From the NCBI GenBank assembly GCA_020853255.1, contig JADYZI010000276.1, forward strand, positions 1 through 11,069: a stretch of 11,069 nt of DNA, written 5' to 3'. The notes under the pieces are model-generated. The model made no database searches. It was not told where the DNA came from and worked only from the letters and a program-made list of their open reading frames with translations. Below, one piece after another: positions 1 to 11,069 of the stretch; position 1 is the first letter of the stretch; each line of letters opens with the position of its first letter. A program made the translations under genes and the position numbers. This DNA is from Acidobacteriota bacterium. Its GTDB lineage: Bacteria > Acidobacteriota > Blastocatellia > Pyrinomonadales > Pyrinomonadaceae.

Positions 1-55
1 AACTTTGTTGCGTCGGAATCCGGTGTTCAAAGAGCGAACCTTTTAATTAAACGCT

Positions 56-2134
56 TTAACCCGTTAGAAAAGTTTCAATTACCTTGTAACTTGCCTCGAC
101 CGCCTCGCCGAGCTTTTCTGTTTCGGGGCCGCCGCCTTCGGCCATGTCGGGGCGGCCGCCGCCTTTTCCGCCGAGGATCGGCACAATTTCCTTGATAACA
201 TTGCCGGCCTTGACCTTGTCTTTCAGATCATCGGAAACGCGGACGATAACGCCTGCTTTTCCCTCGTCTTTGCGGCCGAGAACGACGACGCCCGACTTTA
301 GTCTCGCCAAAAGCGTGTCTGAAAGCTGCCGCATCCCGCTTGCGTCAAGCCCTTCGACGATCTTGCCGACCACCTTTACTCCTGACACCTCGCGGGCCTC
401 GTCTCCATTAGATGACGCTCCGCCGATCGTGCCGGTTGCAATTTTCAGCTTCAGGTCGTCCATCTCACGCCGCGTTCGTTTCAATTCATCCTGCAATTTT
501 TCGATCGCATTCGGCAATTGATCGCGTTGGGTTTTCAAAACATCAAGGCTGCGGCCGATCAATAGCTCGTCCTCGCGGAAACGTTCGAACGAGTCGAAAC
601 CGGTAATTGCTCTGATGCGTCGAACACCGGATGCGATAGCTTCGTCGGACGTGATCTTAAAGCTGCCGATATCGCCCGTCGCGCGAACATGCGTCCCGCC
701 GCAAAGCTCCATCGAGAACTTGCCGTCGCCGACACTCAATACGCGTACTTCCGAGCCGTATTTTTCACCGAACATCGCGACCGCGCCCGATCGCATTGCG
801 TCTTCGATCGCCATCATGTTCGTCGTAACCGGCTCATTCTGAAGGATATAGCGGTTCACGAGATCTTCGACTTCGCGGATCTCCGCCTCGCTCATCGGCT
901 GATAATGCGTAAAATCAAACCGCAAATAATTCGGCGCAACGACCGAACCTGCCTGCTTTACATGCGTCCCAAGCACCTCTTTCAACGCCGCGTGAACAAG
1001 ATGCGTAGCCGTATGATTTCGCCGCGTCGCATCGCGCTTTTCGACATCGACAAAGGCGTTCACTATATCGCCAACCTTGATCGAACCTTTGTCGATCTTT
1101 ACCTTGTGGATTATCAATCCCGCCACCGGCGAATACGTGTCCGCAACCGTCGCCCGCATCAAGCTCCCCTCCTTCCGAAGGAGGGGTGCGGCTTTAGACG
1201 CGGGGTGGTTCTCTGCAACCTCGTCAGGATTCATGTCGGGTTGGCCTCGATCAGCCTCGGAAAGAACCACCCCGTCACCCGAAGCGAGTGCCACCCCTCC
1301 TTCGTAAGGAGGGGAGCTAAGAACGCCGACAAGAACTCCCGTGTCGCCAACCTGTCCGCCCGACTCGGCGTAGAACGGTGTTTCGTCCAGCACGACGCTG
1401 CCCTGCTCGCCCTCGCCGAGTGCATCAAGCTGCTTGTCGCCATCAAGGATCGCCACGACCTTTGATCCCTCACGCGATGTCGTTTCATAACCGTGAAATT
1501 TATTCGCTCCGACCTTGCCCAAAACTTCCGCATAAAGCGGACTTATCTCCGATTTTCGCTGTGTTTGGCCTATGCCCGAATGCTTTTGCAGTTCCTGTAA
1601 AGCGTTGTCGAATTTGGCGTTATACTCGTCCTCGTCGAACGAAATTTCCTTTTCTTCCAGAAATACGCGGATCAGATCGCGAGGCGTGCCGAAAGTGTCG
1701 TAGAGCTTCGCGATCTGAACGAACAGGTCCTCGTCTCGGGTGTCTTTCGACACATTCAGTTCGTTAAGTTTTCCAAGCCCGACCGTGACCGTATTCCCAA
1801 ACCTACTCTCCTCCAATCGCACCATTTTGCCGATAAAATCGCGTTGTGTTTCAAGCTCAGGAAATGCGGCGGAAAAATTCTCCACCACGAGATCGCAGAC
1901 TTTATAAAAGAATGCGTCTTTCAACCCAAGATGCTCGCGGCCGTGATAGATGGCTCGGCGCATTATTTTGCGCAGCACGTAGTTGCGTCCCTCGTTGCCG
2001 GGCAAAATACCGTCGGCAATTGCAAACGCCGTCGCCCGCGCGTGGTCGGCGATGACACGGCAGGCGAACTGTTGAGTCTCTGATAAACTTTCGTAAGCGC
2101 TCATTCGATTTAATTGTATAACAGGCGGAAACAC
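56..2134 (-). CDS. alaS: Alanyl-tRNA synthetase lacking its N-terminal catalytic core (editing and C-Ala domains present)
   Basis: AlaRS normally charges tRNA-Ala and hydrolyses mischarged Ser/Gly-tRNA-Ala. This 692-residue product starts about where the helical tRNA-recognition region begins (RVIADHARATAF, residues 26-37; LPGNEGRNYVLRKIMRR, 44-60). Then come the editing domain, with zinc-site motifs NHTATH (H374, H378) and CGGTH (C478, H482), a coiled-coil linker (about 535-566) and the C-Ala domain with GGKGGGRPDMAEGGG (655-669). Bacterial AlaRS is usually about 870-880 residues; roughly the first 250, holding class II motifs 1-3, are absent and are not found upstream on the same strand. 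A palindromic repeat adds about 55 residues (268-326) in the editing-domain region. The GTG at 2134 lies inside a repeat arm. The ATG at 2104 (MSAYES) is an equally good start; neither has a Shine-Dalgarno (SD) site. It could be a recent 5'-truncated pseudogene, one half of a split alaS, or an assembly join at the repeat. Family identity is certain; functional status is not. Confidence 0.9.
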   Translation of the reverse strand: MFPPVIQLNRMSAYESLSETQQFACRVIADHARATAFAIADGILPGNEGRNYVLRKIMRRAIYHGREHLGLKDAFFYKVCDLVVENFSAAFPELETQRDFIGKMVRLEESRFGNTVTVGLGKLNELNVSKDTRDEDLFVQIAKLYDTFGTPRDLIRVFLEEKEISFDEDEYNAKFDNALQELQKHSGIGQTQRKSEISPLYAEVLGKVGANKFHGYETTSREGSKVVAILDGDKQLDALGEGEQGSVVLDETPFYAESGGQVGDTGVLVGVLSSPPYEGGVALASGDGVVLSEADRGQPDMNPDEVAENHPASKAAPLLRKEGSLMRATVADTYSPVAGLIIHKVKIDKGSIKVGDIVNAFVDVEKRDATRRNHTATHLVHAALKEVLGTHVKQAGSVVAPNYLRFDFTHYQPMSEAEIREVEDLVNRYILQNEPVTTNMMAIEDAMRSGAVAMFGEKYGSEVRVLSVGDGKFSMELCGGTHVRATGDIGSFKITSDEAIASGVRRIRAITGFDSFERFREDELLIGRSLDVLKTQRDQLPNAIEKLQDELKRTRREMDDLKLKIATGTIGGASSNGDEAREVSGVKVVGKIVEGLDASGMRQLSDTLLARLKSGVVVLGRKDEGKAGVIVRVSDDLKDKVKAGNVIKEIVPILGGKGGGRPDMAEGGGPETEKLGEAVEASYKVIETFLTG
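1162..1318. repeat. Palindromic repeat element inserted in frame within alaS
   Basis: Two inverted arms (1162-1212 and 1263-1318) face each other across about 50 bases. Each arm begins AGCTCCCC and ends at the GGTTCT side. Each outer end holds its own hairpin: at 1166-1186 the ten bases CCCCTCCTTC pair with GAAGGAGGGG around one base, and 1294-1314 holds the near-identical hairpin. The arms differ by a few substitutions and a 5-base indel. The element is read without stops by alaS (residues about 268-326, SSPPYEGGVALASGDGVV to PLLRKEGS). It replaces the short loop that AlaRS proteins have between the GDTG and VADT segments. A related half element lies in the hydrolase gene at 3574. It has no transposase and is best seen as a REP/MITE-like element. 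Confidence 0.85.
2113..2118 (-). promoter_or_regulatory. Candidate -10 hexamer upstream of the truncated alaS
   Basis: On the minus strand TACAAT (5 of 6 to TATAAT) is followed by 8 bases and then the ATG at 2104. A TG dinucleotide just upstream (TGTTATACAAT) could act as an extended -10. No convincing -35 box is seen, because that position falls inside the inverted-repeat arm. If real, the mRNA would start close to the ATG and be leaderless. This is weak evidence from one short motif in an AT-rich stretch. Confidence 0.25.
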
Positions 2135-2271
2135 GAGCGGTAGCGAGTGTGCCCTTTGAGTCTTTGGTCTTGCGTTTTAACTCAATTCACCCTGCGGAAC
2201 TGGACTCACGACTTAAGACTCAAAACTTACGACTAATTGGGGCACACTCCCTACCGGTCGTGTTTCTGCCT
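2123..2271. repeat. 149-bp inverted-repeat (MITE-like) element between alaS and the membrane-protein gene
   Basis: The left arm 2123-2154 and right arm 2240-2271 (32 bases each) are inverted copies with three mismatches; both contain AGGC.GAAACACGA and GAGTGTGCCC. Inside, a weaker second pair (TTTGAGTCTT near 2155 and its complement near 2210-2220) continues the symmetry around a loop of about 35 bases. There is no ORF of its own. The left arm contributes the first codons of the long alaS reading frame. The right arm encodes the last six residues (RQKHDR) and the stop of the 2251-2646 gene. No target-site duplication is obvious. It could be a MITE, a REP-type element or a structured RNA. Confidence 0.75.
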
Positions 2272-2646
2272 AAAACCGCCGAGCAATTGCAGCACGACAC
2301 CAGCGAGAGAAAGATATATCCCGTTGCGGCTGAGATCCGAAAAACCCATGACAGTGTATGTTTCCTCAACAAATGCCCAAACTAGAAGGCCGCTCGAAAT
2401 GAACAGAAACGCAGAGCCGATGTACTGAGCAAACTGCTGCCAGCGCGACCCGCTCATCCGCAAATAAACGCCGAGCACAATGTGAATCAACGCCGAGAAC
2501 AGAATATAAATATGTCTCGACCGCATCAGAACGCGCAATTCCTGCGAGATCGCTTCTTTGTCCGGAAAGTCCACCCGCATATACTCGCCCGTCTGTGTGA
2601 AGACTATGAACAGGACGATACCGAATATTAGGTGAAACCAGGACAT
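2251..2646 (-). CDS. Small integral membrane protein with four predicted helices, function unknown
   Basis: A 131-residue hydrophobic protein that I cannot assign to a named family. Four hydrophobic segments are visible: about 3-19 (HLIFGIVLFIVF), 45-63 (HIYILFSALIHIVLGVYL), 72-92 (FAQYIGSAFLFISSGLLVW) and 107-124 (GIYLSLAGVVLQLLGG). They are separated by short charged loops, the longest being about 20-44 (EYMRVDFPDKEAISQEL), so it should sit in the inner membrane. The ATG at 2646 is the natural start, with no strong SD site. The gene is divergent from the hydrolase gene; the 73-bp gap must hold both promoters. The C-terminal RQKHDR plus stop coincides exactly with the right arm of the repeat at 2240-2271, so the original C-terminus has probably been replaced. 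It is on the same strand as alaS, but the repeat lies between them. Confidence 0.7.
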   Translation of the reverse strand: MSWFHLIFGIVLFIVFTQTGEYMRVDFPDKEAISQELRVLMRSRHIYILFSALIHIVLGVYLRMSGSRWQQFAQYIGSAFLFISSGLLVWAFVEETYTVMGFSDLSRNGIYLSLAGVVLQLLGGFRQKHDR

Positions 2647-2708
2647 TTGATTTGTAAAAGCTAAAGCCGCTAATTATTATCGACGAAGCCTTTTTAAATC
2701 AAGCCGTC

Positions 2709-2712
2709 GAGG
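2709..2712 (+). promoter_or_regulatory. Ribosome binding site of the serine hydrolase gene
   Basis: GAGG lies 7 bases before the ATG at 2720. It is the clearest SD site in the window and fixes the start that gives the hydrolase its signal peptide. Confidence 0.6.
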
Positions 2713-2719
2713 TAATCAA

Positions 2720-3991
2720 ATGAGATATGCGCGGATCGCCGCTCTTCCGTTATTGTTTTTGACAATTGTGATCGCAATAAATGCCCAATCCACAGTGACC
2801 GAGACCAAATTCACAAAATTCAAAGACGCGTACCTGAAAGAGGTCACAGATGCAGGCATTGTCGGGAGCAGTTTTGTATTTATTAAGGATGGCAAGACTG
2901 TTTCGGAGGTTCACTACGGCTCAGCGAACCTTGAAAAAAAGCAGCCTGTCAATGCGGAGACGATCTATCACTGGGCGTCGAACACAAAGCCGTTTACGGG
3001 CATTGCTATCATGCAATTGCGTGACCGCGGGCTGTTGAAATTGGACGATCCGGTAACGAAATATTTGCCCGAATTGCGCGCGGTTCATAACAAATTCGGC
3101 TCGATGGACGAGATAACGATCCGTCATCTGATGACGCATTCGGCAGGTTTTAGAAATCCTACGTGGCCGTGGGACAAAGGCGAGGATTGGGAGCCTTTTG
3201 AGCCGACCGAATATTCACAGCTTGTCGCGATGTTCCCGTTCACCGAGATATTGTTCAAACCGGGCAGCAAATTCAGCTATTCAAATCCCGGAATAATCTT
3301 CCTCGGCCGCATTATCGAAAAGCTAAGCGGGGAAGATTACGAGGTCTATGTCGATAAGAACATCCTCAAACCATTGGGCATGTATCACAGCTATTTCGAC
3401 ACAACGCCGCCATACCTGCTGGGCCGCCGCTCGCACAGCTACTATATCGAAAACGGAAAACGCACAACGGGCCGCTTCGACGCAAACAGCGGCATCACCG
3501 TCTCAAACAGCGGCCTGAACTCGCCGATCTCGGACATGGTCAAGTATCTCAATTTCTTGATCGGCAGTTCCGGCTCCCCTACTGTCTCAGGAGGGGTGGC
3601 AGCCGCTTCGGCTGACGGGGTGGTGAAAAGCGACCGGCCTCCTGTCAGAACCGCGAGCGATAGCGACCGGGTTCCGTATGACATGATCCTAAAACGCTCA
3701 TCCCTGGAAGAAATGTGGCACCCACAGCTTCCGACGCCTGTCGATGCCAACGGCAACAGCGGTTTTACGACCGATATCGGCCTGATCTATTTCCTCAACC
3801 GCCGCGACGGCCGAACATTCATCGGCCACGGCGGCGACCAGAACGGATTTATCAGCTATATCGACTTCGAACCCGCCACAAAACAAGCGTCGATCATCGT
3901 GTCCAATACAAATGTGATCTATCCGCCAAATACACCTCCGGATAGAGATGTCGTCAGTCGACTTAGGAATGCTATTCGGGAATTGTATTAG
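2720..3991 (+). CDS. Secreted serine hydrolase of the beta-lactamase / penicillin-binding-protein fold (class C-like)
   Basis: A 423-residue protein with a Sec signal peptide (MRYARIAALPLLFLTIVIAI, likely cut after NAQ near residue 23), hence periplasmic or exported. The three active-site elements of the PF00144 beta-lactamase family are present: SNTK (S87 nucleophile, K90), Y187-S-N189 in FSYSNPG, and HGG (370-372), which takes the place of KTG. The segment HLMTHSAGFRNPTW (136-149) is also typical. Such proteins include esterases, D-aminopeptidases and carboxypeptidases as well as class C beta-lactamases. The sequence does not decide the substrate, and resistance should not be assumed. Residues about 284-319 are encoded by a dispersed repeat and lie between VKYLNFLIG and ILKRSSLEEMW, probably a surface loop. 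The start is supported by an SD site. The gene ends convergently with the PLP-enzyme gene. Confidence 0.9.
   Translation: MRYARIAALPLLFLTIVIAINAQSTVTETKFTKFKDAYLKEVTDAGIVGSSFVFIKDGKTVSEVHYGSANLEKKQPVNAETIYHWASNTKPFTGIAIMQLRDRGLLKLDDPVTKYLPELRAVHNKFGSMDEITIRHLMTHSAGFRNPTWPWDKGEDWEPFEPTEYSQLVAMFPFTEILFKPGSKFSYSNPGIIFLGRIIEKLSGEDYEVYVDKNILKPLGMYHSYFDTTPPYLLGRRSHSYYIENGKRTTGRFDANSGITVSNSGLNSPISDMVKYLNFLIGSSGSPTVSGGVAAASADGVVKSDRPPVRTASDSDRVPYDMILKRSSLEEMWHPQLPTPVDANGNSGFTTDIGLIYFLNRRDGRTFIGHGGDQNGFISYIDFEPATKQASIIVSNTNVIYPPNTPPDRDVVSRLRNAIRELY
3574..3675 (+). repeat. Half palindromic repeat inserted in frame within the hydrolase gene
   Basis: Bases 3574-3634 match one arm of the alaS repeat: CTCCCCT, AGGAGGGGTGGCA, CGCTTCGG and TGACGGGGTGGT occur in the same order and spacing. 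The outer hairpin is kept, although its inner bases differ (CTG pairing with CAG instead of CTT with AAG). The second arm is missing. Instead 3638-3675 carries another palindromic piece (GAACC ... GGGTTC around GCGAGCGATAGCG). Both pieces are read as protein (SPTVSGGVAAASADGVV, then PPVRTASDSDRV). Confidence 0.8.
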
Positions 3992-3995
3992 ATCT

Positions 3996-4020
3996 CCCCT
4001 CTGTGACTCTGTGGTTAAAT
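3996..4020. repeat. Short CTCTGTG tandem motif filling the convergent gap
   Basis: CTCTGTGA followed by CTCTGTGG (3999-4014) and TTAAAT occupies nearly all of the 31 bases between two convergent stop codons. It resembles the ACCACAGAG-type sequences that I recall as dispersed in many environmental bacterial genomes. With one copy here, the repeat status is inference. It is not a recognisable terminator. Confidence 0.35.
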
Positions 4021-4022
4021 GC

Positions 4023-5147
4023 CTACCACCCGCGATGGATCTCCCAGCGGTCGATGATCTGGCCGTTTTCGACGACGTTGTAATGCGAGTGTTGGGCAGC
4101 GGTGAGGCAGGAATGGTTCGCGAGAATTCGCAGCCGATCGCCGACATTCAGACGATGAAACGCGTCGCTTTCGCCAGCCTCGATCTCGCCGTGCTCTTGC
4201 GACAGGCCGGAAACGCGCATTCCGGTCTCGTTTCCATCGATATCGAGAACGCGGCCGTATCCGCACGCCGGATCAAGCCCGACCGGGCCGCGATCTTTTG
4301 ATAACGCAACAGCTCCGGCATCGACGACCAGCCGGTTTCGGGTCTTGTCTTTGTGGATCACCGCTGCAAGGACCGTCAACGCCGTGTCTTCGAATGAGCA
4401 GCTGCCAAGCGTCGCCTGAAAATTGTCGTAAAAAATGTAATTGCCCGGGCGGATCTCGTCGATACCTTCGAGATGATCGATCAGCGACATCGTTGGCGTC
4501 GAACCGATGCTGACCGTCGGCACTTCGATGCTCTGGCTTCGTAATCGTTCCGCCAGCTCAACCATCGAATCCCGCTCATGGCGCGCAACCGCAAGAATTT
4601 CCTCCTTTGACGTTGCATCATAAGATTGCCCGGCATGCGTCAACAGTCCCGCAAACTTCAGTTTGCGGCTGTTTGTTATCGATCGCGGAATCTCCACCGC
4701 CTCCGCCGCGTGAGCCTCGACGCCAACCCGATGCGTCCCGCAATCGATCTTGACGTACACATCGAATTGCAGGCCCGCTTCACCGGCCGCCGTATCCAAA
4801 GCTTTCACCGTCGCCGCATCGTCCGTCAACAGGTTGAGTTTAATGCCGCCAAGCCGCGATATTTCGATAGCCTCGTCAAACTTCCCGCGCTCGATCGGCA
4901 CTGCATAAGTGATATCCGAAAACCCGGCTCGCGCAAACGCCCTCGCCTCAGCCAGCGTCGAAACCGTGATCGCACCGCTATGCCCCGCCGTCTGTATCCT
5001 CGCCACTTCGACACACTTATGTGTCTTAACGTGCGACCGCAGCCGGACGTTGTTGCGGCGAGCAACATCGCTCATACGCTCGGCATTCCGGCGAACACGG
5101 GCTATGTCGAGAAGGATGGATGGCGTATTAAGATTCGAGAAATTCAC
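4023..5147 (-). CDS. PLP-dependent D-serine dehydratase / D-threonine aldolase-like protein (DSD1 family, alanine-racemase fold)
   Basis: A 374-residue protein of the fold-type III PLP family that cleaves or deaminates D-3-hydroxy amino acids (D-threonine, D-serine) in the cytoplasm. The N-terminal barrel starts NTPSILLDIARVRRNA (7-22). HVKTHK (39-44) is the PLP-lysine motif, with K41 the likely Schiff-base residue. IDCGTHRVG (134-142), GLLTHAG (167-173) and SIGSTPTM (213-220) follow. The C-terminal domain ends NHSC (344-347) ... SHYNVVENGQIIDRWEIHRGW. The metal pair reads H345-x-C347, the pattern known for D-serine dehydratase; characterised D-threonine aldolases have HxD. That favours, but does not prove, dehydratase-type chemistry. 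The start is GTG at 5147, equivalent to the start of the fossil paralogue at 7279. It lies 3 bases after the vapC stop, so it is likely read through from vapBC. Confidence 0.85.
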   Translation of the reverse strand: MNFSNLNTPSILLDIARVRRNAERMSDVARRNNVRLRSHVKTHKCVEVARIQTAGHSGAITVSTLAEARAFARAGFSDITYAVPIERGKFDEAIEISRLGGIKLNLLTDDAATVKALDTAAGEAGLQFDVYVKIDCGTHRVGVEAHAAEAVEIPRSITNSRKLKFAGLLTHAGQSYDATSKEEILAVARHERDSMVELAERLRSQSIEVPTVSIGSTPTMSLIDHLEGIDEIRPGNYIFYDNFQATLGSCSFEDTALTVLAAVIHKDKTRNRLVVDAGAVALSKDRGPVGLDPACGYGRVLDIDGNETGMRVSGLSQEHGEIEAGESDAFHRLNVGDRLRILANHSCLTAAQHSHYNVVENGQIIDRWEIHRGW

Positions 5148-5150
5148 TTT

Positions 5151-5546
5151 TTAGCTATCAAGGTGGATAGGCAGGATCTTCGCGTAATGTTGAAAATCCG
5201 TATCCGTTGTGAAGATCGACATGTCACGACGCACTGACGCCGCGCATATCAGAAAATCTGTATTGGAGCCTTGAATGCCGCGGGCCCGGCACTTGTTAAA
5301 GTAACTGGCCGCTTCCTCGTAGTCTTCACTCGTCAGAAAAACATCAGGAAAATTCCTTAAATTCTCTCGCAGCAATTTGAATTGAGACTCGACCTTCACG
5401 CCTGAAAGGATCTCTTGACGAATGGGCCCGATAATAGCTACCAGGCCGTTCTGAATCAATACTTCGAGCCTGGCCCTTGACGGATGAGCCGCTCCGGTTC
5501 GTCTCAAAGCCAGCGACCAAACGGATGTGTCAATCAAAACTTTCAT
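5151..5546 (-). CDS. vapC: VapC-type PIN-domain ribonuclease toxin
   Basis: A 131-residue PIN-domain protein. The acidic metal-binding residues of the family are visible: D6 (LIDTSVW), E45 (PIRQEILSG), D97 (NTDFLICA) and D115 (TTDTDF). VapC toxins are Mg-dependent endoribonucleases, often cutting tRNA or rRNA, and are held inactive by the cognate VapB. The start ATG overlaps the vapB stop by 4 bases (ATGA), the usual sign of translational coupling. The length and motif spacing match full-length VapC, so it should be active. The RNA target cannot be read from the sequence. Confidence 0.9.
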   Translation of the reverse strand: MKVLIDTSVWSLALRRTGAAHPSRARLEVLIQNGLVAIIGPIRQEILSGVKVESQFKLLRENLRNFPDVFLTSEDYEEAASYFNKCRARGIQGSNTDFLICAASVRRDMSIFTTDTDFQHYAKILPIHLDS

Positions 5547-5743
5547 AGCCGCCGACGCTGTTTCTTATAGTCGTACTGCGGGTCGAGGTCGATCTTTCCA
5601 AAAATCTCAACGATCTTTGCTTGTTTGCGACGCTGAATGTACTCGACAAGAGCTTCGGTAACCGCGGCTTTCTTCGTACGATGCCCTCCAACCTTCAGTG
5701 CCGTTTCGATCAGTTTGTCGTCAATTGCAAGATTCGTCGCCAT
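5543..5743 (-). CDS. vapB: VapB-type antitoxin
   Basis: A 66-residue protein beginning MATNLAIDDKLIETALKVGG. It continues HRTKKAAVTEALVEYIQRRKQAKI and ends IDLDPQYDYKKQRRRL, which is the standard layout of the short VapB family paired with PIN toxins. It has an N-terminal DNA-binding dimerisation part and a C-terminal tail that occupies the toxin. The frame is open further upstream, to 5797. The start at 5743 is chosen because family members begin MATNLAIDD and because the upstream codons fall in a palindrome and a likely promoter. No SD site precedes it. It overlaps vapC by 4 bases. Confidence 0.88.
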   Translation of the reverse strand: MATNLAIDDKLIETALKVGGHRTKKAAVTEALVEYIQRRKQAKIVEIFGKIDLDPQYDYKKQRRRL

Positions 5744-5762
5744 GTGTAAATGTTTACACATG
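5741..5762. promoter_or_regulatory. Perfect palindrome over the vapB start codon, probable VapBC operator
   Basis: CATGTGTAAA and TTTACACATG are exact inverted copies separated by 2 bases. The CAT at 5741-5743 is the complement of the vapB ATG, so the symmetry starts at the start codon and covers the candidate -10 region. VapBC complexes are known to repress their own operon by binding such inverted repeats. Binding here would block RNA polymerase directly. Confidence 0.65.
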
Positions 5763-5778
5763 AAGGGGTGCAAGTCAA
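5751..5778 (-). promoter_or_regulatory. Candidate vapBC promoter (leaderless arrangement)
   Basis: On the minus strand a -35 box TTGACT (5773-5778, 5 of 6 to TTGACA), 16 bases and a -10 TAAACA (5751-5756, 3 of 6) stand 7 bases before the ATG at 5743. The -10 is poor, but its position within the operator palindrome and the lack of an SD site make the arrangement coherent. Confidence 0.4.
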
Positions 5779-5823
5779 ATGATTTTAATCGAGTCATCTA
5801 TTCGAGCTTGGACACCATGAGCC

Positions 5824-5852
5824 TAGACGTTTTAACGCTTTAACGTTATAAT
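5824..5852 (+). promoter_or_regulatory. Promoter and possible operator of the antitoxin-relE operon
   Basis: A perfect TATAAT (5847-5852) is preceded by a 17-base spacer and TAGACG (5824-5829, 4 of 6 to TTGACA). The ATG at 5860 lies only 7 bases after the -10, so transcription should begin at or next to the start codon. The spacer carries two direct copies of TTTAACG (5831-5837 and 5839-5845), a plausible binding site for the ribbon-helix-helix antitoxin. Confidence 0.6.
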
Positions 5853-5859
5853 GCGTGTT

Positions 5860-6093
5860 ATGGCAACTCAGCTTAAACGAGCCACTGTCTATTTCCGGCC
5901 TGACATCCATCAGGCGATCAAATTGAAATCTGCGTTAACGGACCAAAGCATTTCAGACATCGTTAATGACGCACTGATCGCGACCCTAAGCGAAGACGAA
6001 GAGGACTTACGTGCCTTTGACGAGCATACGAACGATCCCTTAATGACCTATGAAGAGCTGCTGGCTCGGTTGAAAGCGGATGGCAAAATATAA
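5860..6093 (+). CDS. Ribbon-helix-helix (CopG/RelB-like) antitoxin of a RelE-type module
   Basis: A 77-residue protein starting MATQLKRATVYFRP. The segment RATVYFRP (7-14) fits the beta-strand of a ribbon-helix-helix DNA-binding domain. HQAIKLKSALTDQ and SISDIVNDALIATL (about 17-44) fit its two helices. The acidic middle (SEDEEDLRAFDEH) and the tail LMTYEELLARLKADGKI are typical of the toxin-neutralising part of such antitoxins. An in-frame ATG at 5851 is rejected because it lies inside the TATAAT box. The 3' end overlaps the toxin start by 14 bases. It should both neutralise the toxin and repress the operon. Confidence 0.85.
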   Translation: MATQLKRATVYFRPDIHQAIKLKSALTDQSISDIVNDALIATLSEDEEDLRAFDEHTNDPLMTYEELLARLKADGKI

Positions 6094-6346
6094 CGTTCTC
6101 TACACCGAGGCGTTCTATAAAAGCCTTAAATCCATCCCAAAACGGGATGTTAAACGCATACTTCGAAAGACGCGCTCTTTGGCGGCCGAACCACGTCCGT
6201 TCGGTTGCCAAAAACTTGCTGGTCAGGAAAAGTACAGGATTCGACAGGGCGACTACAGGATCATCTATTCGATCGAAGACTCACGCTTGGTCGTGGTTGT
6301 GGTCAAGGTCGGCAACAGACGTGAGGTGTATGACCGCGGAAAGTGA
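6080..6346 (+). CDS. RelE/ParE-family toxin, probable mRNA interferase
   Basis: An 88-residue protein with the full RelE-fold pattern: YNVLYTEAFYKSLKSIPKRDVKRIL at the N-terminus, then GCQKLAGQEKYRIRQGDYRIIYSI (42-65) and VVKVGNRREVYDR (74-86). The basic and aromatic residues of the RelE active surface are present (R54, R60, R80/R81, Y84), which favours ribosome-dependent mRNA cleavage. ParE-type gyrase poisons share the fold and are not fully excluded. The ATG lies inside the antitoxin's last codons, a standard overlap. The RNA ligase gene starts 18 bases after its stop on the same strand. Confidence 0.88.
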   Translation: MAKYNVLYTEAFYKSLKSIPKRDVKRILRKTRSLAAEPRPFGCQKLAGQEKYRIRQGDYRIIYSIEDSRLVVVVVKVGNRREVYDRGK

Positions 6347-6364
6347 GTTTCAAAAGCCGGAAAA

Positions 6365-7105
6365 GTGGAGAGAATCAAGCCATTTGGATGTAAAAACTAC
6401 GGCAGCATCCCGCATTTGTCCGGCTCTCGGTTGGGTGAACGGGACTATTCCGCAAATGCGGGCCAGGAACGTATCGCAACAGTCCGTCGTCGCGACCGAT
6501 TTGACGAGGTGCTTGTCCAAGAAAAGTTGGACGGCTCAAATGTCGGGGTCGGGCTGCTCGACGGCGTTCTCCACCCGCTCGTTCGTGCGGGCTATCCGGC
6601 TTCGACCTCGCCGCGCCGCCAGCATTGGGAATTTTCAAATTGGGTGTTCGCAAATGAAGAACGATTCCGCGCCGTTCTCAAAGAAGGCGAACGCATTGCC
6701 GGCGAATGGCTGATGCAGGCACACGGAACAAGATACAAGCTTGTTCACGAACCCTTTGTCGCTTTCGACCTAATGACCGGTGAGATGCGGACGCCGTATG
6801 ACGAGTTTGTCAAAAGGATTGACGGCACGTTCACGCTCCCATACCTGCTTCATCGCGGCGACAGCATTTCCATACAAAAGATCCTTGGCTTGTTGGGCGA
6901 GCACGGCCATCACGGATCACTCGATAAGGCAGAAGGAGCGATCTGGCGTGTAGAGCGTCAGGCCCCGGTCGGCAAACAGCAAGCCCGCCGGCGAGTCGTC
7001 GATTTCCTATGCAAATATGTCCGAACCGACAAACAAGACGGCGCCTATCTCCCCGAAATAAGCGGCCGCGACGCAGTATGGAACTCGCTGCCAGATTCTC
7101 CGTGA
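6365..7105 (+). CDS. ATP-dependent RNA ligase (Rnl2-like nucleotidyltransferase)
   Basis: A 246-residue protein carrying the covalent nucleotidyltransferase motifs. Motif I is EKLDGSN (53-59), with K54 the AMP-accepting lysine. EGERIAGEWL (107-116) and FVAFDL (131-136) correspond to motifs III/IIIa, EGAIWRVER (190-198) to motif IV, and VVDFLCKYVR (211-220) to motif V (K217). The N-terminal KNYGSIPHLSGSRLG is typical of the PF09414 RNA-ligase family. Such enzymes seal RNA nicks or breaks through an RNA-adenylate. The start is GTG at 6365, 18 bases after the toxin stop, with only a weak purine stretch as SD site. Homologues begin at a similar distance before the KYGSI motif. It is possibly co-transcribed with the TA pair, since no promoter is evident between them. 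No OB-fold or kinase domain is attached, so a kinase or phosphatase partner would have to be elsewhere. Confidence 0.87.
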   Translation: MERIKPFGCKNYGSIPHLSGSRLGERDYSANAGQERIATVRRRDRFDEVLVQEKLDGSNVGVGLLDGVLHPLVRAGYPASTSPRRQHWEFSNWVFANEERFRAVLKEGERIAGEWLMQAHGTRYKLVHEPFVAFDLMTGEMRTPYDEFVKRIDGTFTLPYLLHRGDSISIQKILGLLGEHGHHGSLDKAEGAIWRVERQAPVGKQQARRRVVDFLCKYVRTDKQDGAYLPEISGRDAVWNSLPDSP

Positions 7106-7147
7106 TGGCGGGCGAAATCTATCCATTACCTTTATCTTCTCATCTGA

Positions 7148-7279
7148 CGCTTTTACCGATTCCGAATCATCCGTTAGGAGGTTTAGCTTAACGACGCCGT
7201 GCAAAATCCCGATCTTGGCATTCCGGCGAAGGCGAGCGATGTCGAGAAACAACAATGAAGGTGTCATCAATTCATTCAC
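7148..7279 (-). pseudogene. Decayed fragment of a second DSD1-family PLP-enzyme gene
   Basis: The minus-strand frame from ATG 7279 reads MNELMTPSLLFLDIARLRRNA and then, after a jump, KIGILHGVVKLNLLTDDSESVKA. These align with residues 1-22 and about 95-116 of the intact enzyme at 4023-5147 (NTPSILLDIARVRRNA and ISRLGGIKLNLLTDDAATVKA). About 75 residues between the blocks are deleted, and everything after VKA, including the rest of the barrel and the C-terminal metal domain, is gone. Most nucleotide differences between the two copies are at third codon positions, so this was a separate, selected paralogue before it decayed, not a recent copy. It lies just beyond the RNA ligase gene. Confidence 0.8.
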
Positions 7280-7288
7280 ACTCTCGGA

Positions 7289-7304
7289 TCCCGCAGGCGC
7301 GGGA
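7289..7304. other. Small perfect hairpin downstream of the RNA ligase gene
   Basis: TCCCGC and GCGGGA pair around a 4-base loop (AGGC), followed by AAA on the plus strand. There is no U-tract for plus-strand transcripts, so a Rho-independent terminator is not supported. On the minus strand a TTTT precedes the stem, which is the wrong side. It could be a small REP-like hairpin or chance. The rest of the 7106-7330 gap holds only the gene fragment. Confidence 0.3.
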
Positions 7305-7330
7305 AAACTGAACCAATTGTGGATAGCTAG

Positions 7331-8137
7331 CTAGTTTTTGTTGTATCCAAACTTTCTGGTCATCAAGGTGTTTTTCCACCACTGTTCCCGTTTAATGATC
7401 ACGTCATCGTCAATCGTCGATTTAAAGATGTCCAAAATAGAGTACTGAAAATGTTCTTTGATATGATTGAAATCGCATTCGTCTCTTTTGAGTTCCACAT
7501 TTCCGCCGTGACCAGTTCTCACGTATGACGACCACCTGCCATATAACATTGTCGTTCCGTACGCCGAACCCACGTACATCTGGCCATTGCTCTTGTCGGT
7601 AATCAGGTAAACGCCTTTCTGGTTCTCCAATGCCGTTTTCCAGATGCTCTTGGTCAAAACCCTTTTAAGATCGGCCCACGATAGGTTAACGTTCTCGTAT
7701 CCAGGGAAAACGTCGTCGTCGAAGGTGTCCTCCAATATCTGCTGGACAACACAGTCATGAATAACGCTTTCGGCCTTCCTAACCATCTGTTGAGATCGAT
7801 TCTTGTAGTGAATGATTATCCGCCCAAAGTATTTCTCGTATTCGTTCAACGTCTCGTACTCATAACCAACGCCACTAAGTCGGTTCAAGTCTTTGGTAAT
7901 GCGACTAATGTCGAATAGCAACCACCTGTCACCTTCAATTCGCACGAGACCGATTGCCACTTGGTTTAAACGAAAAGACTTGCCCTTTTTGTAATTCCAA
8001 AACTGCCATTCGAAGAGCCTTTTTCGGTCTTCCTTAAAAATGGCTATTGGGTTATCTTTACCGTTTGAAGTGACAAATCGTATCTTGGAGTTCCCGAGGT
8101 CGGGAAGGTTAAGTATTTCGTTCAACAGAATTGTCAT
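7331..8137 (-). CDS. GIY-YIG nuclease-family protein with an N-terminal accessory domain
   Basis: A 268-residue protein. The C-terminal part has the GIY-YIG nuclease signature: KGVYLITDKSNGQMYVGSA (174-192, with G-V-Y and Y-V-G), R201 in GRWSSY, E251 in IKREQWWK, and a terminal FGYNKN (263-268) with the conserved Asn. The first 165 residues (FEWQFWNYKKGKSF, RWLLFDISRITKDLN, GYEYETLNEYEKYFGR, FPGYENVNLSWADLKRV) form a separate domain that I know from similar proteins in diverse bacteria but cannot name. It probably recognises the substrate. Base composition stands out: 7381-7440 has 23 G+C of 60, against 41 of 60 at 8461-8520 in tkt, so recent transfer is likely. It may be a homing-type, repair or defence nuclease. 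No methyltransferase or helicase partner is adjacent. Confidence 0.8.
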   Translation of the reverse strand: MTILLNEILNLPDLGNSKIRFVTSNGKDNPIAIFKEDRKRLFEWQFWNYKKGKSFRLNQVAIGLVRIEGDRWLLFDISRITKDLNRLSGVGYEYETLNEYEKYFGRIIIHYKNRSQQMVRKAESVIHDCVVQQILEDTFDDDVFPGYENVNLSWADLKRVLTKSIWKTALENQKGVYLITDKSNGQMYVGSAYGTTMLYGRWSSYVRTGHGGNVELKRDECDFNHIKEHFQYSILDIFKSTIDDDVIIKREQWWKNTLMTRKFGYNKN

Positions 8138-8195
8138 TTTCTGATCTAGTTCTCAAAAGAATTGAGTTAATCTGCGGTACGTTCAAAAGTCTCAA

Positions 8196-8213
8196 AAGCT
8201 ACTAAAGTAGCTT
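8196..8213 (-). terminator. Possible intrinsic terminator overlapping the transketolase stop codon
   Basis: On the minus strand AAGCTAC and GTAGCTT pair around TTTA and are followed by a short T run (TTTTGAGACTTTTG, counting the last stem bases). The TAG stop of tkt is inside the hairpin. The stem is perfect but has only three G-C pairs and the T run is interrupted, so termination may be weak. Confidence 0.4.
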
Positions 8214-10235
8214 CCTTGCCTTCTTTACGACATTCTCAACGGTAAACCCGTAGTCACGAAACACATCTTCCGCTGGAGCAGAGGCGCCGAAGCGGTCCAC
8301 CGAAAGGGTGTCGCCGTGGTTGCCGGTGTATTTGGCCCAGCCGAGGGAGACGCCGGCTTCGATGGCGAGACGGGCTTTTACGGATGACGGCAGGACGGAC
8401 TCTTTGTATTTAGCGGATTGCGCGTCAAAGAATTCCCAGCAGGGCATTGAGACGACGCGGGTCGGGGTGCCGGAGCGGTTTAGGCGTTCGCGGGCTTCCA
8501 TCGCCAAGCCGACCTCGGAACCGGTGGCGATGAGGATAAGCTTTGGAGCGGTTTTATTGCCCTTGCGGTCTTCGGCTTCCGCCAGAACATACGCGCCTTT
8601 GTGAAGGCCGCTGGCCGAGGCGAATTTCTTGCGGTCGATCACGGCAACCTTTTGACGCGAGAACGCGAACGATGTCGGGCCGTCGGTCCGCAGCAATGCT
8701 GCACGCCAGGCTTCGCGGGTTTCGTGGGCATCGCAGGGGCGAATGACGGCGAGATTCGGGATCGAGCGCAACGCCGCGAGGTGTTCGACCGACTGATGCG
8801 TCGGGCCGTCCTCGCCGAGGCCGATCGAGTCGTGCGTGAAAACGAACAGCACCTGAATATGCGACAACGCCGCAAGCCTGATCGCCGGGCGCATGTAATC
8901 CGAGAAAGTTTGGAATGTTCCGCCAAACGGGATGAGGCTGCCGTACAACGCCATACCGTTCATCGTCGCGCCCATCGCGTGTTCGCGGATGCCGAAATGA
9001 ATGTTGCGGTTCGCATAACGGCCGGGCTCAAAATTCGACGACGATTTGATGTAAGTGTTGTTTGAAGGCGTCAGGTCGCCCGAACCGCCGATCAATTGCG
9101 GTATCGCGTCCGCAATCGCGTTTATCACCTCGCCGGAATAAGCACGTGTCGCTTTTGCCTCAACATTATCAAACTTCGGCAGGCTTTTCTCCCAACCTTC
9201 AGGGAGTTTGCCGCTCCGGGTTTCGCTCAAAGTTTTCCCCATTTCGGGATATTTCTTTGAATATACTTTCACCGCCGCTTCCCAATCTTTCTCCAAACGC
9301 GCTCCGTTTTTTACGGCCTGGCGGAAATGCGAGAGAACTTCTTTTGGCACGAAGAAACTCTTGTTCTCGGGCCAATCGAGGTTTCGTTTTGTTTCCTTTA
9401 CAGCCTCGGGGCCGGGTGCGTCGGAGTGAGCTTTGTTCGTTCCCTGTTTCGGCATTCCAAAACCGATGATCGTCTTTATTCGGATCAGCTTTGGCTTGCC
9501 GGTGCTTTTACGCGCCGCGCGGATCGCGCTTTCGATGGCAAACAGATCGTTGCCGTCCTCGACCGAGGTAACCTCCCAACCGGCCGCTTCGAACCGCATT
9601 GTCACGTCTTCGGTGAAGGCCAGGCTCGTCGGGCCGTCGATCGTTACCTGATTGTCGTCGTACAGGTAGATAAGGTTATCGAGCTGCAAATGACCGGCAA
9701 GCGATGCCGATTCATAACTCACGCCTTCCATCAGATCGCCGTCCGAACAGATGCAGTAAATGAAGTGGTCAATGACGTTATGGCCCGGCCGGTTGAACAT
9801 CGCTTCGAGATGCTTCTGCGCAATTCCCATCCCGACGCCGTTCGCAAAGCCCTGCCCCAGCGGCCCGGTCGTTATCTCGACACCCGGCGTCAGAAGATTT
9901 TCCGGATGCCCCGGCGTCTTAGAATGAAGCTGCCGAAAATGCTTGATGTCGTCCATCGAAAGGCCGTAACCGGTCAGGTGAAGCAAGGAATAAAGGAGCA
10001 TCGAACCATGCCCGGCGCTCAGCAAAAACCGGTCGCGGTTAAACCACTTCGGGTTCTTCGGATTGTGCCGCAGAAACTTGGTCCACAACACATAAGCCGC
10101 CGGGGCCATCCCCAACGGCAGCCCCGGATGCCCTGAATTCGCCTTCTGTATCGCATCAAGCGAAAGCGTGCGGATAGTGTTGATAGAAAGCTGGTCGATG
10201 TCGGTCGTTCGTTTCATTTTGGCTGCTGTGGTCAT
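8202..10235 (-). CDS. tkt: Transketolase
   Basis: A 677-residue, full-length transketolase (family usually 660-690). It is a cytoplasmic homodimer that uses thiamine diphosphate to move two-carbon ketol units in the non-oxidative pentose phosphate pathway. The PP domain holds [13 protein letters not shown] (33-45, H36), SAGHGSML (73-80, H76), KTPGHPE (106-112) and the metal/ThDP site [12 protein letters not shown] (164-175) with N195. The Pyr domain has GSGDLTPSN (384-392), [10 protein letters not shown] (413-422, E418 being the cofactor-activating glutamate), the [13 protein letters not shown] segment (441-453) and GPTHQ (477-481, H480). The C-terminal domain has [14 protein letters not shown]. 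All catalytic residues are intact. The start at 10235 (MTTAAKMK) is slightly upstream of a second Met at 10217; neither has a clear SD site. It stands alone, with no other pentose-phosphate gene beside it. Confidence 0.97.
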
Positions 10236-10426
10236 TTACTAAGTTTAGTTTATTGAAATAGATTTTTGTAGTCCGCAAACTTCGATGCACGAACAGGTAA
10301 AGGTTCGGGAAACGGCGAGATGGAAACAAGTAGCGAAATTCGTTTCATCATCAACCTCAAGCGCTTATTCTCCGGTCGTCATAGGTCTCTGCGACGAAGT
10401 CCAGTAAGGACTAACGCACTGCGGTT

Positions 10427-10864
10427 CTAATTTGTCAGCGGATCAATGATCTTTATGTAGTCCGAGAATCTGCGAAAGTCCTTATCCGTGGAGGCGATGG
10501 CGGCATTGTGTTCGGCGGCGAGCGCGGCAATGTGTGCGTCGGATACGAGATCGGCCGTCAAGTCCAGGTCGGAGAGGATCCGCGAAAATATTTGCCAATG
10601 CCTCGGCGTCGGCACAACGGCGGTCACAAGCGGATGTGCGAACAACTCGTCCAGTTTAGAACGCGAAAACTTGCCCGTGAACGGAGCATCGAAGATGCGG
10701 CGATTCGTGCTGAGCCGCAAAAAAGCCGTCGCGACATGCCAGGTGATCCCGATCGAGTCCTTCCCGTCCGACAATGTCGTTTCAAGCCATTCTACTGCTC
10801 GCTTATGCTGCGAAAAATGGGGCATATAAGCGTACAGAAGGATGTTCGCATCGACGACGATCAT
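10427..10864 (-). CDS. vapC: VapC-family PIN-domain toxin (second, distinct subgroup)
   Basis: A 145-residue PIN protein: MIVVDANILLYAY (D5), WHVATAFLRLSTNRRIF (42-58), LVSDAHIAALAAEHNAAI (106-123, D109) and STDKDFRRF (125-133, D127, D129). It belongs to the VapC subgroup whose middle motif reads W.V...FLRL.TN rather than carrying the usual conserved glutamate, so the metal site differs from the vapC at 5151. Probable endoribonuclease. Its ATG overlaps the stop of the upstream antitoxin (ATGA at 10861-10864), so the two are translationally coupled. The 190 bases between it and tkt hold no gene that I can see. Confidence 0.87.
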   Translation of the reverse strand: MIVVDANILLYAYMPHFSQHKRAVEWLETTLSDGKDSIGITWHVATAFLRLSTNRRIFDAPFTGKFSRSKLDELFAHPLVTAVVPTPRHWQIFSRILSDLDLTADLVSDAHIAALAAEHNAAIASTDKDFRRFSDYIKIIDPLTN

Positions 10865-11067
10865 TTATGCTGATCTCCTTCGGCTATGGAGATAAGCGAA
10901 CTGATCTTGTCGTAATTGATTCCCGCTTTCGGCTTCGTATCACGACCCGGTCTGACCTTGAACCTGACTTTCACGGCCTCGCCATCTGCCGCCAGCCCTT
11001 TTCGCATTATGTCGTTAACGATCTGTTTGAAAGAAGCCTCAGGCCGTTTTTTTTGAACGCCTTTAAT
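10861..11067 (-). CDS. vapB: Partial antitoxin of the right-hand VapC module (start outside the window)
   Basis: The minus-strand frame ending in TGA at 10861 is open to the window edge (68 residues visible). It reads RPEASFKQIVNDIMRKGLA, then VKVRFKVRPGRDTKPKAGI, then NYDKISSLISIAEGDQHK. The SFKQIVNDIMRKGLA segment matches the second helix of ribbon-helix-helix antitoxins (pattern SFKEVVNEALRRGL), and the rest is the toxin-binding tail, as in VapB proteins of about 80-90 residues. Only the N-terminal strand is missing, lying beyond the edge. The stop overlaps the toxin ATG. Confidence 0.8.
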   Translation of the reverse strand: MKGVQKKRPEASFKQIVNDIMRKGLAADGEAVKVRFKVRPGRDTKPKAGINYDKISSLISIAEGDQHK

Positions 11068-11069
11068 GC

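Follow-up and report, generated by a model that had tools for sequence, protein, structure and literature searches.

The DNA analysed here, referred to as the window, comprises positions 1–11,069 (11,069 nt) of contig JADYZI010000276.1 from a Pyrinomonadaceae member of the Acidobacteriota (GCA_020853255.1), and it carries two unrelated genes in which copies of one short palindromic repeat are inserted in frame. The first gene, alaS, lies at 56–2134 on the minus strand and encodes the C-terminal part of alanyl-tRNA synthetase (AlaRS), namely the end of the core and the editing and DHHA1 domains (Pfam PF01411 positions 261–509, PF07973 and PF02272). The second, at 2720–3991 on the plus strand, encodes a serine hydrolase of the beta-lactamase family (PF00144, E 4e-59, and orthologues). 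In related genomes the same repeat brackets a small nuclease gene of the DUF559 family, which, we propose, probably mobilises it.

Repeat units in alaS and the hydrolase gene

The original prediction had described a 157-bp element in alaS and a relative of it in the hydrolase gene, sharing sequence, reading frame and orientation relative to the gene. The shared repeat is borne out by sequence comparison: positions 1266–1317 are 85% complementary to 3573–3624 over 52 nt, the two copies share one reading frame relative to the repeat, translating as SSPPYEGGVALASGDGVV in alaS (minus strand) and SPTVSGGVAAASADGVV in the hydrolase (plus strand), and both open reading frames (ORFs) remain open. The 157-bp insert is a repeat but not a single element. 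It consists of two inverted units of ~52 bp, unit A (1162–1211, plus strand) and unit B (1266–1318, minus strand), separated by a spacer of ~54 bp (1212–1265, no strand). Therefore, alaS reads one unit in sense, unit B, and the other in antisense, unit A, whose hairpin 2 is degenerate and whose translation is ENHPASKAAPLLRKEGS. The common orientation thus holds for unit B and for the single sense unit of the hydrolase, unit C (3573–3624, plus strand, translation GSPTVSGGVAAASADGVV, supported also by orthologues), but not for unit A. Close after unit C lies a second palindrome, CAGAACCGCGAGCGATAGCGACCGG (3643–3675, plus strand), which is in frame, unrelated to the unit and, by eye, similar to repetitive extragenic palindromic (REP) sequences of the GTAG type; similar inserts are found in the same two loops of kin.

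In the copies compared, the unit consensus of ~52 bp reads hairpin 1 (CTCCCCTCCTT-loop-AAGGAGGGG), TGGCA, hairpin 2 (a variable stem-loop) and TGACGGGGTGGT. Single units, inverted dimers and short arrays all occur. The paired T-A to G-C change noticed earlier in the outer hairpin is located in hairpin 1 (CCCCTCCTT/AAGGAGGGG vs CCCCTACTG/CAGGAGGGG), and hairpin 2 also shows a paired change between the two window copies. In kin, the stem of hairpin 2 is kept and covaries: 77 distinct inner segments have 32 different 5-mer stem starts, a mean pair run of 5.26 (at most 2.91 in 200 shuffles of the right arms) and, in 81%, at least four pairs. A search of Rfam for a structured-RNA family returned no matches at gathering score in 10 sources, the window among them. 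At L114, L136, L137 and L181 tandem units with a period of ~57 or ~190 bp lie partly within long ORFs and form coding repeats.

The window repeats are insertions, because the corresponding sites in orthologues are empty or differently filled. Hydrolase orthologues L022, L027, L028 and L029 have no insert and L024 has few residues only, while other versions of the insert are present in L019, L020, L023, L025 and L026, that of L025 in another frame; L021, with eight stops in the translated stretch, was set aside. In L020 (~10890–10960) hairpin 2 of one unit contains a second unit, and translation continues in frame through the nested product. As for AlaRS, 58 of the 120 nearest proteins have a bare 10-residue loop and 60 have longer loops of 14–84 residues, many of which are recognisable repeat translations (two were not parsed at the insert site). 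The inserted residues are thus not universal. In the DNA-level comparison of 30 alaS loci of the genus (L200 not parsed), the site is bare in L194, L197, L202, L203, L208, L209, L211 and L213. It is occupied by a single antisense unit in L195, L196, L201, L204 and L207, by a dimer as in the window in L189, and by a different, GTAG-like palindrome in L188 (the nearest kin), L190, L191, L212 and L217. Residues of the RTGSGSDRVP type occupy the same loops in kin. The alaS site, filled by various palindromes, is therefore a landing place for several repeat families, and the length variation at both sites suggests that the inserts sit in surface loops.

Three further features of these genes were observed. 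GTAG-like palindromes are in-frame inserts as well (RTGSGSDRVP, PPATAGGSD) in the alaS and hydrolase loops. Directly upstream of alaS, at 2123–2271, the window contains a further large inverted repeat of another kind (91% over 32 nt, with GCGGTAGCGAGTGTG / CTCCCTACCGG) that resembles a GTAG-type REP dimer. AlaRS itself is apparently split in the genus: the N-terminal catalytic part (PF01411 1–260) is a separate match in eight of eight genomes, within an open frame of 280–371 aa that is distant from the C-terminal gene (~640–680 aa) or on another contig, and the many AlaRS orthologues of 629 aa agree with such a split.

Copies, frame and orientation in related genomes

Exact-pattern copies were found in 31 of 37 genomes of the genus and in none of 23 genomes of other genera, with no hit for a reversed control pattern; the repeat is therefore not a chance occurrence. 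A looser pattern was positive in 34 of 41 genus genomes, at 0–51 copies per genome, some nested or overlapping matches being included in these counts. Frame and orientation were tabulated in 77 regions of kin genomes G012, G014, G004 and G022, with five stretches bearing DUF559 cassettes left out and with gene calls of our own, based on ORFs and codon scores. The 112 copies classed comprise 59 inside ORFs and 53 outside (in G004, none of ten inside); after arrays were collapsed, 82 copies remained, 43 of them inside ORFs, and 34 of these 43 strictly intragenic, meaning that coding signal was present and the ORF extended for 60 codons or more to either side. Sense copies predominate among the strict ones (26/34, p = 0.003), the antisense copies falling into two frames (five and three). 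Within the sense copies, 23 are in frame 0, which is the frame of the window, and three in frame 1, the third sense frame containing a stop (23/26, p = 9e-5 against two open sense frames). Thus, frame usage departs from neutrality. In the preferred frame the product is a small hydrophilic peptide, SPPYEGGVAAASADGVV, and in the other open sense frame it is APLLTKEGWQPLRLTGWF. The hosts are conserved genes: 19 of 20 host ORFs that we chose for a Pfam search gave a match, and their domains include DNA polymerase III alpha (dnaE), glutamyl-tRNA synthetase (gltX), GidA, asparagine synthase and DFP. Orthologues that can lack the inserts, together with kin copies that prefer one frame, support the suggestion in the original prediction that the repeat behaves like Rickettsia palindromic elements (RPEs).

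The dominance of one frame among strict sense copies, and the recurrence of inserts in the same two loops of many species, could also be expected if the peptides were functional, positively selected loop extensions, that is, domesticated rather than tolerated parasites. We regard this as very unlikely, since many kin have nothing in these loops, others have repeats there from three or more unrelated families, differing in frame and orientation, and a bias towards a hydrophilic frame is what purifying selection would be expected to produce.

DUF559 genes between inverted repeat units

The dimer structure and the presence of a partner gene weigh more than any of the features that were predicted originally, and both had been missed. 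A search of 41 genus genomes (PF04480, E ≤ 1e-15) gave 29 DUF559 matches, two in long ORFs (L030, L091) and 27 as solitary small genes. All 27 solitary genes lie between inverted repeats with a score of at least 45 (64–96 for L238–L241), a score that was reached at six of 1500 random positions in kin DNA and six of 1500 in plasmid DNA, with the gene stand-in of the tests fixed at 310 bp. Weak partial matches outside all test groups (L050–L053, L059) scored 16–25. The flanking repeats are the window's unit in 23 of the solitary loci, those with sequence inspected, and a strict single-unit finder placed the nearest unit on the plus strand upstream and on the minus strand downstream in 19 of the 27, which is the order of the alaS dimer. 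The cassette occupies several sites: the 27 genes sort by flank into 13 groups (one of them with 13 genes), and five genomes each carry two DUF559 genes in different groups.

The unit often also reaches into the coding sequence of its partner, the 3' end of the gene then lying within the downstream unit. Thus, 47 of the 120 nearest DUF559 homologues end exactly in unit-encoded TTPS..TPP[SLW], as opposed to none of 240 control proteins, eight of the 120 start with unit-encoded residues, and seven of 19 loci inspected use the TAA of the hairpin 1 loop as their stop codon. The encoded protein is a small PD-(D/E)XK nuclease, as judged by the PF04480 match, a fold match to I-Bth0305I and conserved acidic/histidine residues.

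Y1_Tnp genes are abundant in the genus, with 5–21 matches in each of 25 genomes searched, and the wider repeat class has G-rich arms similar to the GGGGWSAS motif which, in the accessible text of PMC3733652, is common to the terminal inverted repeats of some tyrosine transposases. The units could have been moved in trans by such an enzyme, a REP-associated tyrosine transposase (RAYT) or other Y1 transposase, with DUF559 a passenger caught between two copies. This is unlikely in our view. The unit was nearby in one of 30 Y1 loci (22 of the 30 in the genus), 19 of the 30 have inverted repeats of their own that are unlike the unit, and none of the 21 Y1 genes with listed places, among 54 matches in four genomes, is within 2 kb of a pattern copy. 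Nor would a passenger be expected in 13 flank groups and several phyla, often with its stop codon in the unit. Therefore, two repeat-plus-gene associations coexist with separate partners, and a RAYT as the unit's partner in the genus is unsupported. The Y1 loci themselves (L064–L089) show inverted palindromes of several kinds, for example TTTAGCCGTGGG..CCCACGG.

The link between DUF559 and palindromic repeats extends beyond the genus. The pattern GGAGGGGTG..CGGGGTGGT was present in 16 of 297 genomes across the phylum, namely all 13 genus members drawn, G243 of another family (18 copies), and two genomes with one copy each, which equals the control level (one copy in each of two genomes). A strong DUF559 match was found in 25 of the phylum genomes including G243, whose gene is flanked by the unit. 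At small-ORF DUF559 loci of other Acidobacteriota, eight of 12 scored at least 45 (eight of 13 if L093, a 1275-aa open frame with a score of 34, is included), and the flanking repeats are differently spelled but, with the exception of L095, have the same layout. The repeat type of L097 (in G323) and L101 (in G295) has 102 and 163 copies in these genomes, with 0 and 1 in the control, and is listed in G295 mostly as inverted pairs. Outside the phylum, DUF559 genes are frequently, though not invariably, bordered by hairpin repeats of a different spelling; 15 of the 23 plasmid or chromid records found were tested, including L221, where the domain is within a large annotated protein. Here, Novosphingobium L227 has the same core, GGTGGCA-[stem-loop]-TGACGG, and in Sinorhizobium L226 and L232 the DUF559 gene is flanked by a CCCCTCACCCTAACCCTCTCCCC repeat, which had no match in Rfam and which resembles the Rhizobium-specific intergenic mosaic elements (RIMEs) of rhizobia, likewise large intergenic double palindromes.

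Taken with these data, we propose that DUF559 mobilises the repeats, the unit being a non-autonomous element similar to REPs and to miniature inverted-repeat transposable elements (MITEs), and unit-DUF559-unit being the autonomous form; we give this a probability of roughly 0.6. The nuclease would recognise a hairpin, or a pair of hairpins, and nick or cut the DNA. Units, dimers or the whole cassette might then be copied to new sites, perhaps by repair from an existing donor copy, although the last step is a guess. Insertions into a tolerant protein loop that bring no stop would survive, and selection, presumably directed against harmful frames, would mainly keep the sense frame that encodes hydrophilic SPPYEGGVAAASADGVV. 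Such a system would work like the ‘REPtron’ of REP and RAYT, with a different enzyme.

A narrower role for the nuclease has to be weighed as well, in which DUF559, as a homing endonuclease, would move only its own cassette from allele to allele, and the dispersed units would be decay remnants of dead cassettes, with no mechanism of spread of their own. The fold match to I-Bth0305I, the 13 of 27 cassettes at one locus and the commonness of degenerate units would fit. However, single units and dimers whose covarying stems are intact are far more numerous than solitary DUF559 genes (51 pattern copies to one gene in G012, 163 copies to one match in G295). They also lie in conserved coding genes, which a full cassette would presumably inactivate; pure homing is thus decidedly unlikely.

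Several points weigh against mobilisation by DUF559. First, we know of no strand-transfer or strand-joining activity among PD-(D/E)XK nucleases of this fold, and no transposition events were observed. No target-site duplication was seen in the alaS sites, where the genomes compared are diverged and offer no near-identical empty site. Second, the cases are not all independent, because 13 of the 27 genes share one locus and some flank groups are perhaps one old, diverged site. By the strict finder, the remaining solitary genes are arranged minus/plus (two), minus/minus (one) or with a recognisable unit on one side only (five); an internal stop interrupts two of the 27 (L045, L056), and DUF559 proteins in long ORFs are flanked in two of 10 cases (two of 11 with L093). 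Third, genomes with a solitary DUF559 gene do have more copies outside the cassette (22 vs 19 genomes, p = 2e-4; 14 vs 5 in better assemblies, p = 0.008), but in this contrast draft quality is not fully controlled and kinship is uncontrolled, and six of the 19 genomes without the gene hold at least five copies (5, 6, 6, 9, 11 and 11), so that the gene may be lost, missed in draft assemblies, or dispensable. Fourth, the picture outside the genus is uneven. L095 is positive by score with a repeat that has no hairpin layout, and G088 has 81 copies of the L097/L101-type repeat while a different repeat flanks the DUF559 gene of that genome (L107). Flanking of the plasmid and chromid loci is incomplete (score of at least 45 in 8/15 with hit-specific bounds and 7/15 with fixed bounds), weak or negative loci being those of Picosynechococcus (29), two Synechocystis (25, 20), Photobacterium (16), E. 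coli (18), Methylobacterium (21) and N. gonorrhoeae (32). Finally, a DUF559 protein of Caulobacter, VsrA, is described as a mismatch-repair-type nuclease, in an article whose accessible text makes no mention of palindromes, repetitive sequence or transposition (PMC12907096). Searches of an open-access library turned up no link of DUF559 or Vsr to palindromic repeats; subscription papers could contain one.

A broader version of the proposal may be considered, which is tentative and somewhat more apt to fail than to hold. DUF559 proteins might be the mobilising enzymes of a second, RAYT-independent REP-like superfamily in Acidobacteriota, Pseudomonadota, Cyanobacteriota and Deinococcota, CGTC-type REPs included, in which a repair/homing-type nuclease acts on fast-changing covarying hairpins, copies itself and tiny derivatives, and keeps supplying essential proteins with in-frame peptides. 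Many bacterial genomes contain REP-like palindromes, and the CGTC class is left without an enzyme in the accessible text of PMC3733652; DUF559 is a concrete candidate nuclease, and with the repeat as its predicted substrate the question becomes testable in vitro. If our proposal is correct, a repair/homing nuclease is the motor of a miniature transposable element, which would steadily supply dnaE, gltX, alaS and other genes with new in-frame protein segments.

Two features lie elsewhere in the window. A 35-nt direct repeat (86%; 5079–5113 and 7214–7248) is a copy of part of the start of an alanine-racemase/D-serine-dehydratase-like gene and encloses PIN/VapB, ParE-like and RNA ligase genes, as if a block had been inserted with duplicated ends. 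Downstream, 7331–8137 encodes a GIY-YIG domain protein (PF01541, E 4e-6) in which no connection to the repeat was seen.

Relation to known repeat systems

Intragenic REPs have already been described in many bacteria (PMC3733652). The 2013 survey by Di Nocera, as far as its accessible text goes, splits REPs into GTAG and CGTC classes, reports CGTC repeats without associated transposase genes, and gives a CGTC head and a CCA tail for the class that holds RPE-4 and RPE-6 (PMC3733652). The original prediction took the repeat to be unrelated in sequence to the Rickettsia elements, which has to be revised in part: on the other strand the unit reads CCGTCA-[stem-loop]-TGCCA, with the head and tail of that class.

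The likeness to CGTC-tagged REPs, which in the same survey also include Neisseria dRS3 (PMC3733652, accessible text), covers, in part of the copies, the CGTC at one end of the stem-loop, and more generally the CCA-type tail, the inverted dimers, the intragenic copies and the absence of a RAYT association (1/30 Y1 loci, 0/21 listed Y1 genes within 2 kb). CGTC is present in window units B and C and absent from unit A; all copies from the GACGGGG patterns contain it, as those patterns demand, and the looser pattern finds copies without it, e.g., GGCCGGGGTGGT. The commonest copies have TGCCACC after the stem, and the commonest loop, GCTTC, is 5 nt long. Unlike these REPs, with a stem of 8 or 9 bp and a loop of 4 or 5, the unit has a stem whose sequence and length differ between copies of one genome (pair runs of 2–11, inner length 12–30 nt in the 77 segments), a second hairpin fused to it and DUF559 as partner. 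With head and tail present and the fixed 8–9 bp stem absent, the unit is therefore not filed as a member of the CGTC-REPs, although it works like one.

Other systems share part of the behaviour. Like RPEs, the unit is inserted in frame in unrelated proteins and absent from orthologues, but it differs in organism, partner gene and inverted cassettes. Like REPtrons, the cassette has a small gene between inverted palindromic repeats with scattered solo copies; its gene, however, encodes a nuclease of Vsr/homing-type PD-(D/E)XK fold, not an HUH transposase, the repeat does not flank a Y1 tyrosine transposase, and Y1 loci mostly have other repeats. The enzyme shares its fold and conserved acidic/histidine residues with Vsr-like and EDxHD homing endonucleases such as I-Bth0305I, yet it is encoded between dispersed repeats rather than in an intron or intein. 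Finally, MITEs have terminal inverted repeats in common with a gene-bearing element, and in the same way the dimer and the DUF559 cassette share their inverted end units.

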